DNA from: Impatiens glandulifera
Lineage: Eukaryota; Streptophyta; Magnoliopsida; Ericales; Balsaminaceae
Direction of reading: 5' to 3'
Length of the DNA stretch: 64,000 bases
Assembly: GCF_907164915.1 (NCBI RefSeq)
Contig: NC_061869.1
Span: forward strand, 11,988,221 to 12,052,220
The notes beneath the pieces were generated by a model that was not told the DNA's origin, did not search any database, and saw only the letters and a program-made list of their open reading frames with translations. The first letter of the stretch is position 1, and every line of letters begins with the position of its first letter. A program made the translations under genes and the position numbers. Of the stretch, positions 36,480-59,909 are shown piece after piece.

Positions 36480-37600
36480 TCAATCAAAACTTCAAATGAA
36501 TAATCTTTTTCTTAAATTAATTATGTTTATTTAATTTAAATTGGATTTTATAAAAAAAATCAAATTACCATTCGATTATAAACAAATTTACAGATTATTA
36601 AAATTTGAACAAAATTAATATTTACATCATTAATTTTAAAAGCAGTCAGGTACCAGCAAAATATTTTTAAATAATATTTTATTCTAAAAATATGTTTGAC
36701 ACGTAAACTAAGGTTGAAACCATCGAACTTCAAGTCACTCTAAGCCCGCATGCGCACTTGCGCCTGACACGCACATGCAATGCCTGCTCCGGGATTCTCA
36801 AAGTATCGAGGGTTACAAAGTGTTATAATAATATTGACTTGGAAAATATGTTCTATAACTATAGGTAACCATAATTAATTTCATATATATATTTCAGATT
36901 TTACAATAACTTATTGCAGGTAAATAATTGAATGTGCGGGTAAATAATTGAATGTATAATGAGATGTATAAATAAATAGTTAAAATTGGTTTCATAAATC
37001 TCAAAATTATTGGTTTTATTGGTTGAAAGTAATAGATCTTCATTATATTTATTAAAATTTGTTTGATTAGTAGTAATAATAATAATAATAAAAGTTATAA
37101 AACCAAAAAAAAGAAAACATTATTAATAATTTTATTTTGGGTTTATTTATTTGTGCTCATTTTTTTTAAGTTAATTGAATAATATATATAATTTTAAAAA
37201 GTTAACATTATGTATTATTCTGAGTTTATTTTAATTTAATAATTTTTTTTAAATCATTTACGGTTACCACTTAAGCTAACCTAATTATAGGTTCTATATA
37301 ATATTTGACTATTAAAATTAAAAAAAAACTGAAAAATGGATCGAATTGTATAACATATATAATTACAAATTATTTATTTCTCACACCATACTGCACAATT
37401 ATTTTTTTTTAAGAGTAAACGAGTTGAATTATTAATTCACAAGCGGACACCTCCACTATATTTGAAATAGTTAAATTATAAAATATAATTAAAAATATTA
37501 TATATAAGTCTTATTGAACTTATGACATGAATTATAAAAGTTAAAACTTCATATCCATGTGATTCCATGTTCTAATATAAATAAGATCGTCTTTATTGTA
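36480..37600. other. Gene-free AT-rich stretch
   Basis: Downstream flank of the cysteine-rich peptide gene. It includes a short GC-richer patch (36740-36810) with no coding match. Confidence 0.5.
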
Positions 37601-37620
37601 TTTGAAATGTTCGATCTTAT

Positions 37621-37955
37621 TTATTGCATATCACACACACATTTTCTATTTACACAAAACACAGTCAAGATACATCGATTTGCATCGCAGTCATTTTCAG
37701 TCTTACATGTTCCAAATTTTTTTTGATAACAAATACATTTACCTTCATAGCATATACTTAAGCCACCCTTAGCACATAATTTGCAATCATGCATATTCCG
37801 GCAATCCAAAGCTTTTGATGAAAGTGTACCTAAAAGAATTGTACACTCATTAACAAAAAAAATATATATTTATATACATTTTTATTGAAGATGGTGAGAG
37901 AAAGAATACCCATTAAAAACACGAATACAAATGCTTGAATAAAACTATTTCTCAT
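37621..37955 (-). CDS. Secreted two-module defensin-like cysteine-rich peptide
   Basis: Two exons, 37910-37955 and 37621-37829, joined by an 80 bp intron (37830-37909) with GT...TTTTAG borders in phase 1, give an 84-residue protein. Residues 1 to about 23 (MRNSFIQAFVFVFLMG then TLSSKAL) form a signal peptide, so the product should enter the secretory pathway. The mature part has 12 Cys at 25, 31, 34, 42, 47, 49 and 57, 63, 68, 74, 79, 81. That is twice C-x5-C-x(2-4)-C-x(5-7)-C-x4-C-x-C, two tandem six-Cys modules of defensin-like type. An intron within the signal-peptide codons is usual in this superfamily. A TATA box stands 79 bp upstream; AATAAA overlaps the stop codon. There are no frame defects, so it looks intact. 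Role unknown: antimicrobial, reproductive signalling or nodule-type peptides all share this layout. It lies between two Helitron copies. Confidence 0.8.
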
Positions 37956-38033
37956 ATCTTTAACTTCAAATAGTAAATTAGACAAATATCAAAATTATTT
38001 AAATAAGCAATTTCTTATTGACAAACAATATGC

Positions 38034-38041
38034 TTTATATA
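38034..38041 (-). promoter_or_regulatory. TATA box of the cysteine-rich peptide gene
   Basis: TATATAAA on the minus strand, 79 bases before the start codon at 37955, a fitting distance for a short plant 5' leader. Confidence 0.65.
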
Positions 38042-38059
38042 GTCAATAGAGTATAGAGT

Positions 38060-38600
38060 GCAAAAGTATATAATTATTTTAATTTTGTAGAAATGCATTA
38101 ATGATTTTTTTATTTATTATAAAATTATAATATGGTTTGAGTTAATTAAATATTATTATTATGATTCATTTTTATATATATAAATAATATGTAATAAATA
38201 CTATGTTATAAATAAAATTAAAATACTCATAAAGAAATACTAAAAAATTTATAAAAATATAAAAATAGAGTATTCATTTATTAAAAAAGAAAAAGGGGAA
38301 ATATATTAATATTTAATTATTAAATATATAAATTAAAAAATAAAAATTAACTATTGTTTATTAATAAAGACTAAATGAACCAATTTTTGGTAAAACGTAT
38401 GTTTAAATGACATTTTTTAATACACACGTTTAAGTGAGCTAGTTGTATAAGTACATACATCTAAATACGTTTTTTTTCAACAATCTCAGGTGGTTAAAGT
38501 GTTCATATTTAATGCTTAAGACAATGGTTCAAATTCTAAAACATGCAAATAGATTTTTAAGAAATGCATTATTGGACTATAATATATGATGGCGCAACTT
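38060..38600. other. Gene-free AT-rich stretch upstream of the peptide gene
   Basis: No reading frame or element recognised; presumed upstream region of the minus-strand peptide gene. Confidence 0.5.
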
Positions 38601-38609
38601 TTAAACAAA

Positions 38610-39090
38610 TCGGAATTAATGGGTGGTTTGTTGAAGCGTTTGAAAGTGGGACTGTGTGAGGTAATAAGATGAATGTCGGGTGGTGCGTGGTTTGTCGAGT
38701 GTGATGTCAGAATTAGTAGTTGGTTTGGTGAGCATTTAAAATGTGAAGTCACGAGATAAATGTCGGGTGTTGGGTGGTTTGTCGAGTGTGAGGTCACGAG
38801 ATTAAGGTCGGGTGATTGTTGATTATTTGTTGAAGTGTGAGTAAAATTGAGATTGGTTGTTGATTTGTTGAAGTTGGAGTAAGAGAGGGGTCGACTAAGA
38901 TTGGTGTGAATCACAAGATTAAGAGGCATGTGAAAGGTAGTTTGTTGAGGGATAAAAATGTATGTGAAAATATGTGAGTCACAAGATTAAGATCGTTGGG
39001 TGATTTGTCAAGGGATAAAAAGACATATAAAAAAGTGTGAATCACAAGATAATGTTCAATTGATGGGTTAGGTGGAGTGTCTAAAAAATA
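38610..39090. repeat. Degenerate minisatellite
   Basis: About ten imperfect units of roughly 40-50 bp with GGGTGGTTTGTCGAGTGTGA and GTCACGAGATTAAGGTCGGG variants, later GTGAATCACAAGAT forms. The long minus-strand frame across it (38516-38929) is a by-product of repeat periodicity, not a gene. Confidence 0.75.
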
Positions 39091-39174
39091 AAATATATGT
39101 TAGATTAAACTTAATTTTTACCAACTAAACCCAATTTTAAATTAATTAGATTTAAATAATATTTTTATTTTATA

Positions 39175-39658
39175 CCAGCAAAAAGTCCGTGCGTTTGCAC
39201 GAAAGTAAGTTAACATATATTAACTAAAAAAACATGAAAAAAAAATGAAAATTGAAAAAGAAAATTTAAATTTTCTGTTTTTTCGTCTAAAAAAATCGTC
39301 GTTCGTCGAACAGCCACTAAATGCGTCGAACAACAACTAAATGCTTGTAATTGTCCATGTTACTTAAATATACCATTCAAATGGATTCCTTTGTGTTATT
39401 TTTTGATATTCTAATATCAATAGATATTATAATAGTTAGTCTAAGTTATAAACATAAAAAAATATAAGATGAAATAATAAGTGAAATGAATATCGATAAT
39501 TGGACAATATTTTTTTACTAAATTTTTTTAAGGTTGTAAGGATCGTAAGAGAAATCAGAAGTTTTAATTTCTCGAAATATATGACTATAAATATCATTTA
39601 AAAGTCTTACCAATTTGAGACTATAAATATTAAACAAAACTCTTATTCATAGTGTGGA
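39175..39658 (-). mobile_element. Non-autonomous Helitron, copy 2
   Basis: Minus-strand start TCCACACTATGAATAAGAG at 39658 after an A. The end is CGTGCAAACGCACGGACTTT then TTGCTGG at 39175, followed by T. The hairpin is perfect here (CGTGC-AAAC-GCACG). 484 bp, same orientation as copy 1. Both copies also share 14 bases just outside the TC end (TTCAATCAAAACTT on the plus strand). Confidence 0.75.
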
Positions 39659-39699
39659 TTCAATCAAAACTTATCCAAATTAAATTACAGAGATCAATA

Positions 39700-40039
39700 A
39701 ATACGATTGAAATCATCATCTGATAAAGATTTAGTGGTTCTACACATTCAAAGAATAAAATTGTTGTTCGAAATTTCTCTTAAATTGAATAGATGAAAAA
39801 ATAATAGAGAATGAAAAATATAATATCAAAAGGCTAAGAGTTTGGTAACATTCTCAATAAACATCTTATTATTTTAATTTTAAATCACCAAAATATAGAA
39901 TAGTGACAAAAAAAAATAAGTTTATTACCAAATTGAAAGACAATTACATTTATAAATACCAAAATAGAGTAAATATTGAACCACCAGCAATATAACATTA
40001 AAGTTAAAATATATCAAAAAATAATAATAATAATAATAA

Positions 40040-40073
<34 letters not shown>

Positions 40074-41050
40074 GTATCCATTATTTATGAATTTACTTGT
40101 ACTACCTAACAATTTGTCTAAAATTTTGTAAAATGAAACTCATTTTTTTTGTTGGTGTCAAATGCTTATAATCCAATTTTTACAATATTTGCATTAATTA
40201 GTTATAAATTATAACTGAAATAGAACTAAAGGGTTTGTTTTATTTAATATTTTATTTGATGTTAATTATTTGGATAAATTACTCATATATATGAATTGAA
40301 GGTTATAATAATATTTATTATCCGTTAATTTTATTTACATTAATTAGTTATAAATTATAATGAAACTGAATGATTTATTTTATGGACGGGAGGTTATAAT
40401 AATACTTATTATCTGTTAGTGAACATATTTAATGTAAGTATATTTTTTTATAATTTAAATCTCTTAAATAGTTTTTATAATTAATATTAATATTTAATGC
40501 AAAAATCAATAATTATAAATGACTTTTTTAGATGAAAAAGGTTTATTTTATTTGAATTTATTTATAAATAATCAAATTATTTAGATGAAATATTTAATAA
40601 AAAAATATTAATATATATGAATGGTAAGTTATATTTATTGAGTTTATTTTTACTAACATTTTTACTAATATGTGCATTAATTATTTATAAATTATGGTTG
40701 AAATAGAATTAGAAAGGTTTGTTTTTATTTGATGTTTTATTTGATGTTAATTATTTGGATAAATTATTTAATATATATGGATCGAAGGTTATAATAATAT
40801 ATATTATCCGTTAATTTTATTTTCATTGAATATGGCGTTAGTGAACATATTCAATGTAAGTATATTTTTTTACAATTTAAATCTTCTAAATAGTTTTTAT
40901 AATTAATATTAATATTTAATGCAAATCTCAATAATAATATATGACATTTTAGATGAAAAGGGTTTATTTTATTTGAATTTATTTATAAATAATCAAATTA
41001 TTTAGATGAATATTTAATAAAAATATTAATATATATGGATGGTAGGTTAT
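39700..41050. repeat. AT-rich stretch with large imperfect direct repeats
   Basis: Repeated blocks at about 40195-40330, 40330-40630 and 40680-41050 share TTATAAATTATxxxTGAAATAGAA, GATGTTAATTATTTGGATAAA, GAAGGTTATAATAATA and TAGTGAACATATT in order. An (AAT)n run lies at about 40020-40075. No coding feature. Confidence 0.6.
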
Positions 41051-41098
41051 ATTTATTGAGTTTATGTGTATCAAAAATAAAAGTATACCATAAAAATA

Positions 41099-46561: not shown

Positions 46562-47260
46562 CTAGGACAGTTGTAACTTCTGGAGGTATCTTCTCTTTGG
46601 ACGCAGTTTCTCATCTTCTTTTAGGGTGACAAAAGATGATGGGTGGGTCTTCTTCGCACCTTTTGAGAGTTGCATGGCAGATATGTGCTTAGTTTCTCTC
46701 TTGCCCTCTCTTGTTAAAGGTATTATGCAAATATTGTCTTTGTCTAGAATGTACATCTTATTGGAAGAAGGGAGTATGAAGGAATTTACCTTGTCTAGGA
46801 ACTCTATGCCAAGAACCATTTTATAGTTGTCCATGTCAATAATGGAGAAATCCAGAAGGCTAGTCCACTCCCCCAAGTTGATCTTTACATTACAAACAAC
46901 TCCATAAGTTGCACTTGGTGTCGAGTTAACTGCTTTAAGCCACCCTTGCTCCTTAGTGTACCTGATCCCTAGTTTTCCCGCCTCCTTTACCTCTAGAAAG
47001 TTATTGTTGGCTCTCGTATCCAACAAAGCTTTAACCATGTGGTTTCTTAATTTTGTTTCCATGAATAGTTGTAATTTCTTCGCGTACTTTGGCTCCTCAA
47101 ACTTTGATGTAACGACACTAAGTAGGTTTAACAACCCCAATCGAGCTTCATCGTGAAGGTGTTCTTTCTCCTTCATCAATGTTGATAGTTTGTTCTTCAT
47201 AGGGCACTCTCTTTCTTTGTGCGGCCCTTCACAAAAGAAACACTTTATCCGGAGTATCTC
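46562..47260 (-). pseudogene. Gypsy zinc knuckle and aspartic protease
   Basis: CFFCEGPHKERECP (CCHC-type knuckle, about 47210-47255) is followed by a frame of 212 codons (46562-47200). It has MVKALLDTRANNNFLEV and MVLGIEFLDKVNSFILPSSN, the retropepsin fold with its flap and the I-L-G-x-x-F-L end motif. The catalytic triplet is D-T-R rather than D-T-G, so protease activity is doubtful. The homologous copy at 9821-10024 keeps D-T-G. The protease would release gag and pol products from the polyprotein. Confidence 0.85.
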
Positions 47261-47367
47261 TCTACGTTTCTCATCTTGATCTTCTCTACTATTGGGTTTG
47301 GTAAACTTAATTGGGATTTCAGTGTTGTAGATACGGTCTCTACCATTTTCCCTTTGTCATTCCTCTC

Positions 47368-59195: not shown

Positions 59196-59267
59196 GGATC
59201 TGTGGCGCAATGGTAGCGTGTCTGACTCCAGATCAGAAGGTTGCGTGTTCGATTCACATCAGGTTCA
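59196..59267 (+). tRNA. tRNA-Trp (CCA)
   Basis: 72 nt, folding as a standard cloverleaf with anticodon CCA (CTCCAGA loop) and A73 discriminator. The acceptor stem GGATCTG / CAGGTTC is fully paired; T6-A67 looks like a compensated change from the usual C-G. The D stem has a G-T wobble and the T stem one C-A mismatch (C50/A64). Internal A box (TGGCGCAATGG) and B box (GTTCGATTC) are present. A CAACAA motif lies just upstream and a T8 run just downstream, as in expressed plant tRNA genes. No intron. It decodes UGG in cytosolic translation. The T-stem mismatch leaves some doubt about full function. Confidence 0.8.
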
Positions 59268-59357: not shown

Positions 59358-59909
59358 ATTATGGATGGTTTTATTGACCAAAACTAATAACACTAATAAT
59401 TTAGTAAGATATCTATGCAATATGTGGTGCAATAGTAGCGTGTCGGACTCTATATTTGAAGGTTGCGGGTTCAATTCAATATAATTTGTTTTTTAAATGC
59501 GAAATTATTACTTTTAAATCTCTCTATCGCTCATAAATTACCCTTTATGGATAGTTTTATTGACCAAAACTAATAACACTAATAATTTATTAAGATATCT
59601 ATGCAAATATGTGGTACAATAGTAGCGTCGGACACTATATCAGGAGGTTGCGTGTTCAATTCAATATAATTTGTTTTTTAAATGCGAAACTATTACTTTT
59701 AAATCTCTCTATGCCTCATAAATTACACTTTATGGATGGTTTTATTGACCAAAACTAATAAATTTAGTAAGATATCTATGTAAATATGTGGTGCAATAGT
59801 AGCGTCGGACTCTATATTAGAAGGTTGCGTATTCAAGTCAATATAGTTTGTTTATTAAATGCGAAACTATTACTTTTAAATCTCTCTATCGCTCATAAAT
59901 TACACTTTA
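59358..59909 (+). repeat. Tandem array of tRNA-Trp-like units, about 185 bp each
   Basis: Three units (about 59358-59544, 59545-59728 and 59729-59909). Each contains TTTTATTGACCAAAACTAAT, AGTAAGATATCTATG, a tRNA-like core (GTGGTGCAATAGTAGCGT...GAAGGTTGCG...TTCAATTCAATAT) and ATGCGAAACTATTACTTTTA. The tRNA-like core keeps A-box- and T-loop-like parts but has lost the anticodon stem and acceptor pairing. A fourth unit is at 61303-61492. Confidence 0.8.

Follow-up and report, generated by a model that had tools for sequence, protein, structure and literature searches.

A two-exon gene for a twelve-cysteine peptide

The window analysed here is a stretch of 64,000 nucleotides from the genome of Impatiens glandulifera (contig NC_061869.1, C8 below), and the gene in question is a small one on its minus strand. 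It runs from an ATG at 37955 to a TAA stop at 37623-37621 and encodes 84 residues, 12 of them cysteines. Exon 1 (37910..37955, minus strand, 46 nt) holds the start codon and part of the signal peptide, MRNSFIQAFVFVFLM plus one nucleotide (phase 1). The phase-1 intron (37830..37909, minus strand) measures 80 nt, has GT..AG borders and lies ahead of the first cysteine. Exon 2 (37621..37829, minus strand) contains the end of the signal peptide, called by eye as a hydrophobic leader, and two six-cysteine modules before the TAA stop. Module 1, on the minus strand at 37729..37803, comprises cysteines 1-6 in the arrangement C-x5-C-x2-C-x7-C-x4-C-x-C; module 2, on the same strand at 37633..37707, comprises cysteines 7-12 as C-x5-C-x4-C-x5-C-x4-C-x-C and carries the replacement G77R relative to the family described below. 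The cysteine gaps are thus 5-2-7-4-1, a 7-residue linker, then 5-4-5-4-1. Such a density of cysteines exceeds chance: 12 in 62 residues compares with a maximum of 9 and a mean of maxima of 5.6 when the richest 62-residue stretch was scored in all frames of at least 60 residues from 60 first-order Markov shuffles of the window.

Upstream of the start codon, on the minus strand, lies a TATA-box-like sequence, TATATAAAG (38041-38033). Between the two, the region 37956-38025 (AATAAGAAAT.ACTTATTTA ... TATTTGAAG..AAAGATATGG) is strongly conserved among 15 aligned family loci (20 were tried, of which 3 were missed by the search pattern and 2 dropped as near-identical); the TATA-like box is less conserved than this region in the same alignment. 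The conservation of the untranslated leader suggests that the family loci may share regulation.

This model agrees with the original prediction, made from the letters of the window alone, in its two exons, TATA box, phase-1 intron, 12 cysteines and cysteine spacing; the gene is real, and we add that it lies on the minus strand, a point left unstated there. The prediction overlooked the existence of 21 related places in the genome and the Helitron-type segment around the gene. The manner of the gene's arrival is the more interesting fact.

A gene family in the Impatiens genome

We searched the genome of the species with the mature part of exon 2 as a protein query (654 Mb in 1110 contigs, nine of them large, 38.8-162.2 Mb). 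At least 21 places, the window copy included, matched with an expectation value (E) of 0.001 or less, a count that is a lower bound. Seven of these places fall within 25 kb of contig C5, six in the same orientation about 3.8-4.1 kb apart and one inverted, and the others are scattered on C1, C2, C3, C4, C6 and C8. The window copy, on C8, is therefore away from the C5 tandem array. This array (L009-L011, 8.403-8.428 Mb) mixes intact and broken copies. Two near-identical copies in it, with the same exon 1 deletion and an in-frame TGA, flank one intact copy, an arrangement that suggests duplication of a broken and intact pair.

The two-exon model with its phase-1 intron was recovered at 10 of the 21 loci, among them the window copy. 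Exon 1 is 46 nt long in all 10 intact models, the intron ranges from 73 to 349 nt, and the 12 mature cysteines are retained in nine models, the tenth (L024) having 10. The cysteines are kept even though pairwise synonymous divergence (dS) reaches 0.86. The 10 models form 45 pairs, 42 of them with dS above 0; in 28 of these 42 the ratio of nonsynonymous to synonymous divergence (dN/dS) is 0.4-0.8, and in the rest it spans 0.12-1.62, several values being near 1. The cysteine frame is thus kept while the remainder of the peptide changes fast, and the family therefore behaves as a birth-and-death family. Constraint on the family as a whole is likely on these comparisons.

The original prediction presented a secreted-type, two-module cysteine-rich peptide. 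At the level of sequence that description holds, all 10 intact models having both modules on a single exon; the isolation and importance given to the gene were overstated. No title on this peptide family turned up in literature searches that named Impatiens; on our best reading the family is lineage-specific, and it is known so far only from Impatiens.

The gene unit lies between Helitron-type repeats

The gene sits in a unit of DNA (36493..39173, with about 1.2 kb upstream and about 1.1 kb downstream of the gene), parts of which are homologous to the C5, C1 and C3 loci. A minisatellite-like unit rich in GTCGGGTG lies in its upstream part (38610-38805) and recurs in several copies near another family locus on C8 (L020, positions 1-489). 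The gene unit is placed between two direct repeats that are 93.8% identical and that both have the character of a Helitron 3' part on the minus strand: R1 (39174..39672), which ends in CTGG followed by T, and R2 (about 35998..36492), which meets the gene unit at an AAG common to both and ends in CTAG followed by T. The repeat is dispersed: a count in which 40 of 214 candidates were scored gave at least 44 genomic matches.

We inspected 15 ends, 10 from dispersed copies fetched with both ends and 5 linked to the gene. All 15 end, on the gene strand, in CTRR (13 CTAG, one CTGG and one CTAA), followed by T. A palindrome, GTGCAAACGCAC, about 10 nt before CTRR is perfect in at least 8 of the 15; the others are mutated, cut by the edge of the sample or, at one end, deleted. 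The DNA past CTRR differs between ends, except at R1 and the inner repeat of L015 on C3, both of which are followed by the gene unit (the ends were aligned by script on the CTRR motif, and the point where similarity ceases was decided by eye). At the other side, the 10 dispersed copies and R1 continue alike beyond 39672. Window DNA past this point is 82.7-90.3% similar to all three dispersed copies fetched for the comparison, over 331-706 alignment columns. R1 therefore forms the terminal part of a longer element of Helitron-like type, whose body extends to the right, the continuation (39673..40372, minus strand, the length tested) being similar to dispersed copies. Right of this Helitron-like body (39174-40372 on the minus strand, possibly to about 41200) we also noted two repeat blocks, 40415-40647 and 40837-41065, that are 93% alike.

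The joint between the gene unit and R2 is abrupt. The window reads TTTGAAG followed directly by TTTTGATTG, the Helitron itself reads GGATAAG followed by TTTTGATTG, and AAG is shared. The C5 unit lacks this chimeric joint and reads on from GAAG into ATATAG instead. The joint of GAAG with TTTTGATTG is common to the window, to L013 on C1 and to L015 on C3, where it occurs twice, once with small changes. These gene-bearing copies stop exactly at CTAG followed by T, and the DNA beyond differs among the three insertions. The unit at L013 is missing its 5' part. At L015 unit and repeat alternate twice in tandem; one of the two units has lost its first part and the other is without the gene.

Direct repeats of 495 bp first recall a long terminal repeat retrotransposon. 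We rejected this candidate: at the borders neither TG..CA ends nor a primer-binding site nor a purine tract was seen by eye, and the repeat moreover ends in CTRR and T and runs on into a dispersed element of greater length. The excerpts available from two papers on Helitrons list the CTRR end with its palindrome, the adjoining T and transduction of the 3' flank among the features of these elements (PMC2575219, PMC4778049). The balsam segment resembles the gene-capturing Helitrons of the read-through model in all of these respects, the CTRR with its palindrome, the T and the transduced 3'-flank DNA, and differs from them in carrying the gene entire, promoter region included, where the same excerpts describe gene fragments (PMC4778049, PMC2575219).

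Segmental duplication could also account for the dispersed copies, the Helitron pieces then being there by chance. The C5 array and the tandem of L015 indicate that the gene unit does undergo ordinary exchange, and L013 is cut short at its 5' side, inside the unit. However, the gene-bearing copies on C8, C1 and C3 end precisely at CTAG and T, with unlike DNA beyond, and we consider segmental duplication an improbable explanation of their dispersal.

Two modules in a single chain

The two modules resemble each other weakly in some members of the family. A profile of module 2 matches module 1 of L009 at 1.9e-4 and that of six other frames at 0.005-0.02, and a profile of module 1 matches module 2 of L009 at 5.4e-4. 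An old internal duplication is thus a likely, not a certain, origin of the pair. In the approximately 0.31 Mb of sequence examined, the window included, we found no single-module gene.

The linker has 7 residues in all 7 peptides measured, and its sequence varies, YEKTFGT in C5 copies and FEEKNKR in C6 copies. Being constant in length and variable in sequence, it therefore appears to fix the spacing of the modules rather than to serve as a cleavage site. This speaks against the proposal that the chain is cut at YQKKFG, since the KK pair is missing from the C5 and C6 copies. Cutting into two six-cysteine peptides nevertheless has a precedent in the genus, the Ib-AMP precursor of Impatiens balsamina being cut into six according to the available part of PMC10136942. 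The domains of that precursor, in the same account (PMC10136942), are set apart by acidic propeptides of 16-35 residues, whereas the balsam spacer has 7 and does not conserve its KK pair, and in our opinion processing of this kind is rather improbable here. The further idea that the tandem pair acts as a bivalent ligand received no support either way.

Comparison with known peptide classes

With 84 residues, a hydrophobic leader recognised by eye and 12 mature cysteines in 9 of 10 models, the family falls within the broad class of plant secreted cysteine-rich peptides. The strict cysteine-stabilised alpha-beta defensin framework, given in the excerpted text of PMC5234102 as Cys2-x3-Cys3 and Cys5-x1-Cys6, does not fit. 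Both modules have Cys5-x1-Cys6, and between Cys2 and Cys3 module 1 has x2 and module 2 has x4 in place of x3.

Among known two-domain peptides, MtDef5 of Medicago truncatula offers a parallel, a single secreted chain in which a 7-residue linker connects two cysteine-rich domains (PMC5700942, in part). Its domains are defensins of 50 residues, 84% identical, and its charge is +16, whereas the balsam modules have 25 residues and 6 cysteines each, are diverged, and give a charge of +3; we claim no homology. In potency the bi-domain MtDef5 exceeds its single domains (PMC5700942). Closer in taxonomy, the Ib-AMP precursor of Impatiens balsamina is likewise a secreted precursor made up of several cysteine-rich modules, but the mature Ib-AMPs have 20 residues in the pattern CCx8Cx3C, with acidic propeptides of 16-35 residues between them (PMC10136942). 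The cysteine gaps of the balsam two-module peptides include no adjacent pair of the Ib-AMP type.

A weak profile match was to Nodulin_late (PF07127), the family of the legume nodule cysteine-rich (NCR) peptides, which was found in 6 of 8 spliced peptides (E 1.6e-4 to 0.036) and was absent when exon 2 of the window copy was used alone. There are likenesses to this class, namely the two exons, the phase-1 intron, the hydrophobic leader, the fast evolution and the weak profile match itself. The start Cys-x5-Cys and the end Cys-x4-Cys-x-Cys of the NCR motif are also found in the balsam modules. An intron of phase 1 before the first cysteine is likewise the NCR arrangement in the available part of PMC12461094. 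We took up the NCR reading on the Pfam match. The scores are under the curated cut-off, however: 18.7 bits for the window peptide and 22.3 bits for the best of the 8, against 30.4. In addition, the excerpts of PMC12461094 and PMC7230169 give NCRs 4 or 6 cysteines, occasionally 8-10, where the balsam peptide has 12.

The host, moreover, is an Impatiens (Ericales), not a legume of the inverted-repeat-lacking clade. Its plastid ccsA protein matches that of Impatiens glandulifera at 100% over 312 residues, and the next best matches, from other Impatiens, reach 94%. Plastid gene order is inverted in most papilionoid legumes. In the present plastid sequence more than 50 kb separate trnQ from the gene taken to be ycf4 (another was taken to be psbK), an arrangement at odds with that of the inverted-repeat-lacking legumes. 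On plastid gene order and host the NCR reading was dropped; the host being Impatiens, the weak Nodulin_late matches do not make this a nodule peptide, and we give a legume-type NCR identity practically no credence. A PF07127 search of the genome gave no match and is uninformative, as none of 14 control genomes matched either. Matches to EGF_TEN (the window peptide at 0.031, its exon 2 alone at 0.019, a C5 peptide at 0.0047), DUF7107, EB and CBF_beta fall far short of the respective cut-offs and were taken as chance. Searches of NCBIfam and of the sequences of solved structures gave no match.

The proposed scenario and the state of the window copy

We propose, with a probability of roughly 55%, that the gene encodes a lineage-specific, secreted-type defence peptide that acts as one two-module chain, and that the window copy owes its capture and spread to a Helitron. 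The leader would export a peptide of about 60 residues to the apoplast, where oxidation would form six disulfides. The peptide would then act outside the cell as a single two-module chain with its 7-residue linker fixed, in a role of the antimicrobial type that we suggest by analogy with plant antimicrobial peptides. As for its dispersal, a Helitron upstream of an ancestral gene copy would have read through its own 3' end and gone on to copy 2.68 kb, the complete gene and promoter included. At AAG the copying would have returned to the 3' part of the Helitron, to end at CTAG, and the captured unit would have been inserted on C8, in the window, and on C1 and C3.

A number of results weigh against this scenario. 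The defence role draws on analogy alone, and the net charge of 7 mature peptides, -1 to +5 (+3 in the window copy), is weak for an antimicrobial peptide. The fold prediction that the original prediction had called for was obtained as a single-sequence AlphaFold model; it is weak, at a predicted local distance difference test (pLDDT) score of 62.3, with short hairpins, and a fold search of this weak model against the PDB gave no match below E 1.4. No homologue of the family was found among 5.8 billion proteins in a single-sequence search, nor at E of 0.1 or less with an 8-row alignment. As to the module pair, in the window copy the module 1 profile matches module 2 only at 1.8, and module 1 is not listed for the module 2 profile. 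When its two modules were compared directly, 49 of 5000 full shuffles and 522 of 5000 cysteine-preserving shuffles scored as high. Within the genome, 11 of the 21 loci have no intact model, the causes being stop codons, frameshifts, absence of exon 1 or failure to fit the search pattern. On the side of the Helitron, its 5' TC end was not found: the copies are alike for at least about 700 bp past 39672, with no common end in the DNA fetched.

A different function has also to be considered. A secreted cysteine-rich peptide could serve in reproductive signalling, between pollen and pistil in the manner of the LURE peptides, rather than in defence. No sequence feature points there, and we regard such a role as unlikely.

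The remaining results against our scenario concern the window copy itself, which may be a dead-on-arrival passenger of the Helitron, silent and drifting, and intact through its youth alone. Compared with the intact copy C5_2, it differs at 18 of 255 coding positions (7.1%) and at 7.7% of the non-coding DNA of the unit (Fisher p 0.80). Nonsynonymous and synonymous changes number 13:5 (the stop change counted as nonsynonymous) against a neutral 0.72:0.23 (p = 0.44), a fit to neutrality. The chance that the 7 substitutions on its own branch would spare the frame and all cysteines is about 0.27 in a simulation of substitutions alone, indels left aside. G77R replaces a glycine that all 7 remaining sequences of the 8-row alignment retain, and the stop is one codon away from its position in the C5 copies. 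Its nearest sister, L013, grouped with it at 100/100 support, has a frameshift, and the L015 units have lost the gene in one case and the first part in the other.

Against the passenger reading, the window copy shows no coding indel relative to three intact C5 copies, against 20-22 elsewhere in the unit. Its Nei-Gojobori dN/dS against the same three copies is 0.54-0.59, on 17-18 changes. Moreover, in the simulation the chance that all 18 substitutions, those of the C5 lineage included, would spare frame and cysteines is 0.038. That the window copy is such a passenger is accordingly a serious alternative, to which we give somewhat less than even odds.

The description of the gene as clearly undamaged thus applies to its reading frame, and is qualified by G77R, by the stop moved one codon and by the transposon-derived setting. 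In the sense of a gene held by selection it is not sustained, coding and non-coding divergence being alike and the nonsynonymous to synonymous counts fitting neutrality. At the level of sequence, the evidence on whether the window copy is alive is even. Returning to the scenario of a captured defence peptide, selection probably holds the family, and the window copy appears young and undecided.

Other features in the window

The gene had been called the only clearly undamaged one in the window. This is not contradicted by a Pfam check of nine other long open frames, a narrower search than a full annotation of the window, in which two frames only gave matches, both to retroelement pieces. One, at 32689-33423 on the minus strand, is a piece of an integrase (rve; E 6.5e-6, a score short of the curated cut-off) that presumably belongs to a copia-like element. 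The other, at 46562-47356 on the minus strand, is the remnant of a retroelement aspartyl protease (Asp_protease, 2.8e-7). Long open frames at 23784-26495, also on the minus strand, had no Pfam match at 0.001; we take them to resemble transposases of the Mutator-like element (MULE)/FAR1 type. On the plus strand, 59196-59267 is a tRNA-Trp (CCA) gene (58.2 bits), which adjoins a 177-bp tandem repeat at 59359-59909.

Significance

Small secreted peptide genes are easily overlooked by annotation, and one seldom sees how such families leave their tandem arrays. In this case the DNA still displays the joint, the microhomology and an apparent bypass of the terminator, and broken sister copies serve as controls; therefore, the activity of the captured intact gene can be put to test. 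It is possible, although we hold it as doubtful, that a Helitron acquired the entire peptide gene, promoter included, in a single event and distributed copies that work. If so, a two-module, 12-cysteine family outside the defensins would have been re-dispersed as ready-made transcription units, and the new copies would be free to gain another expression or function.
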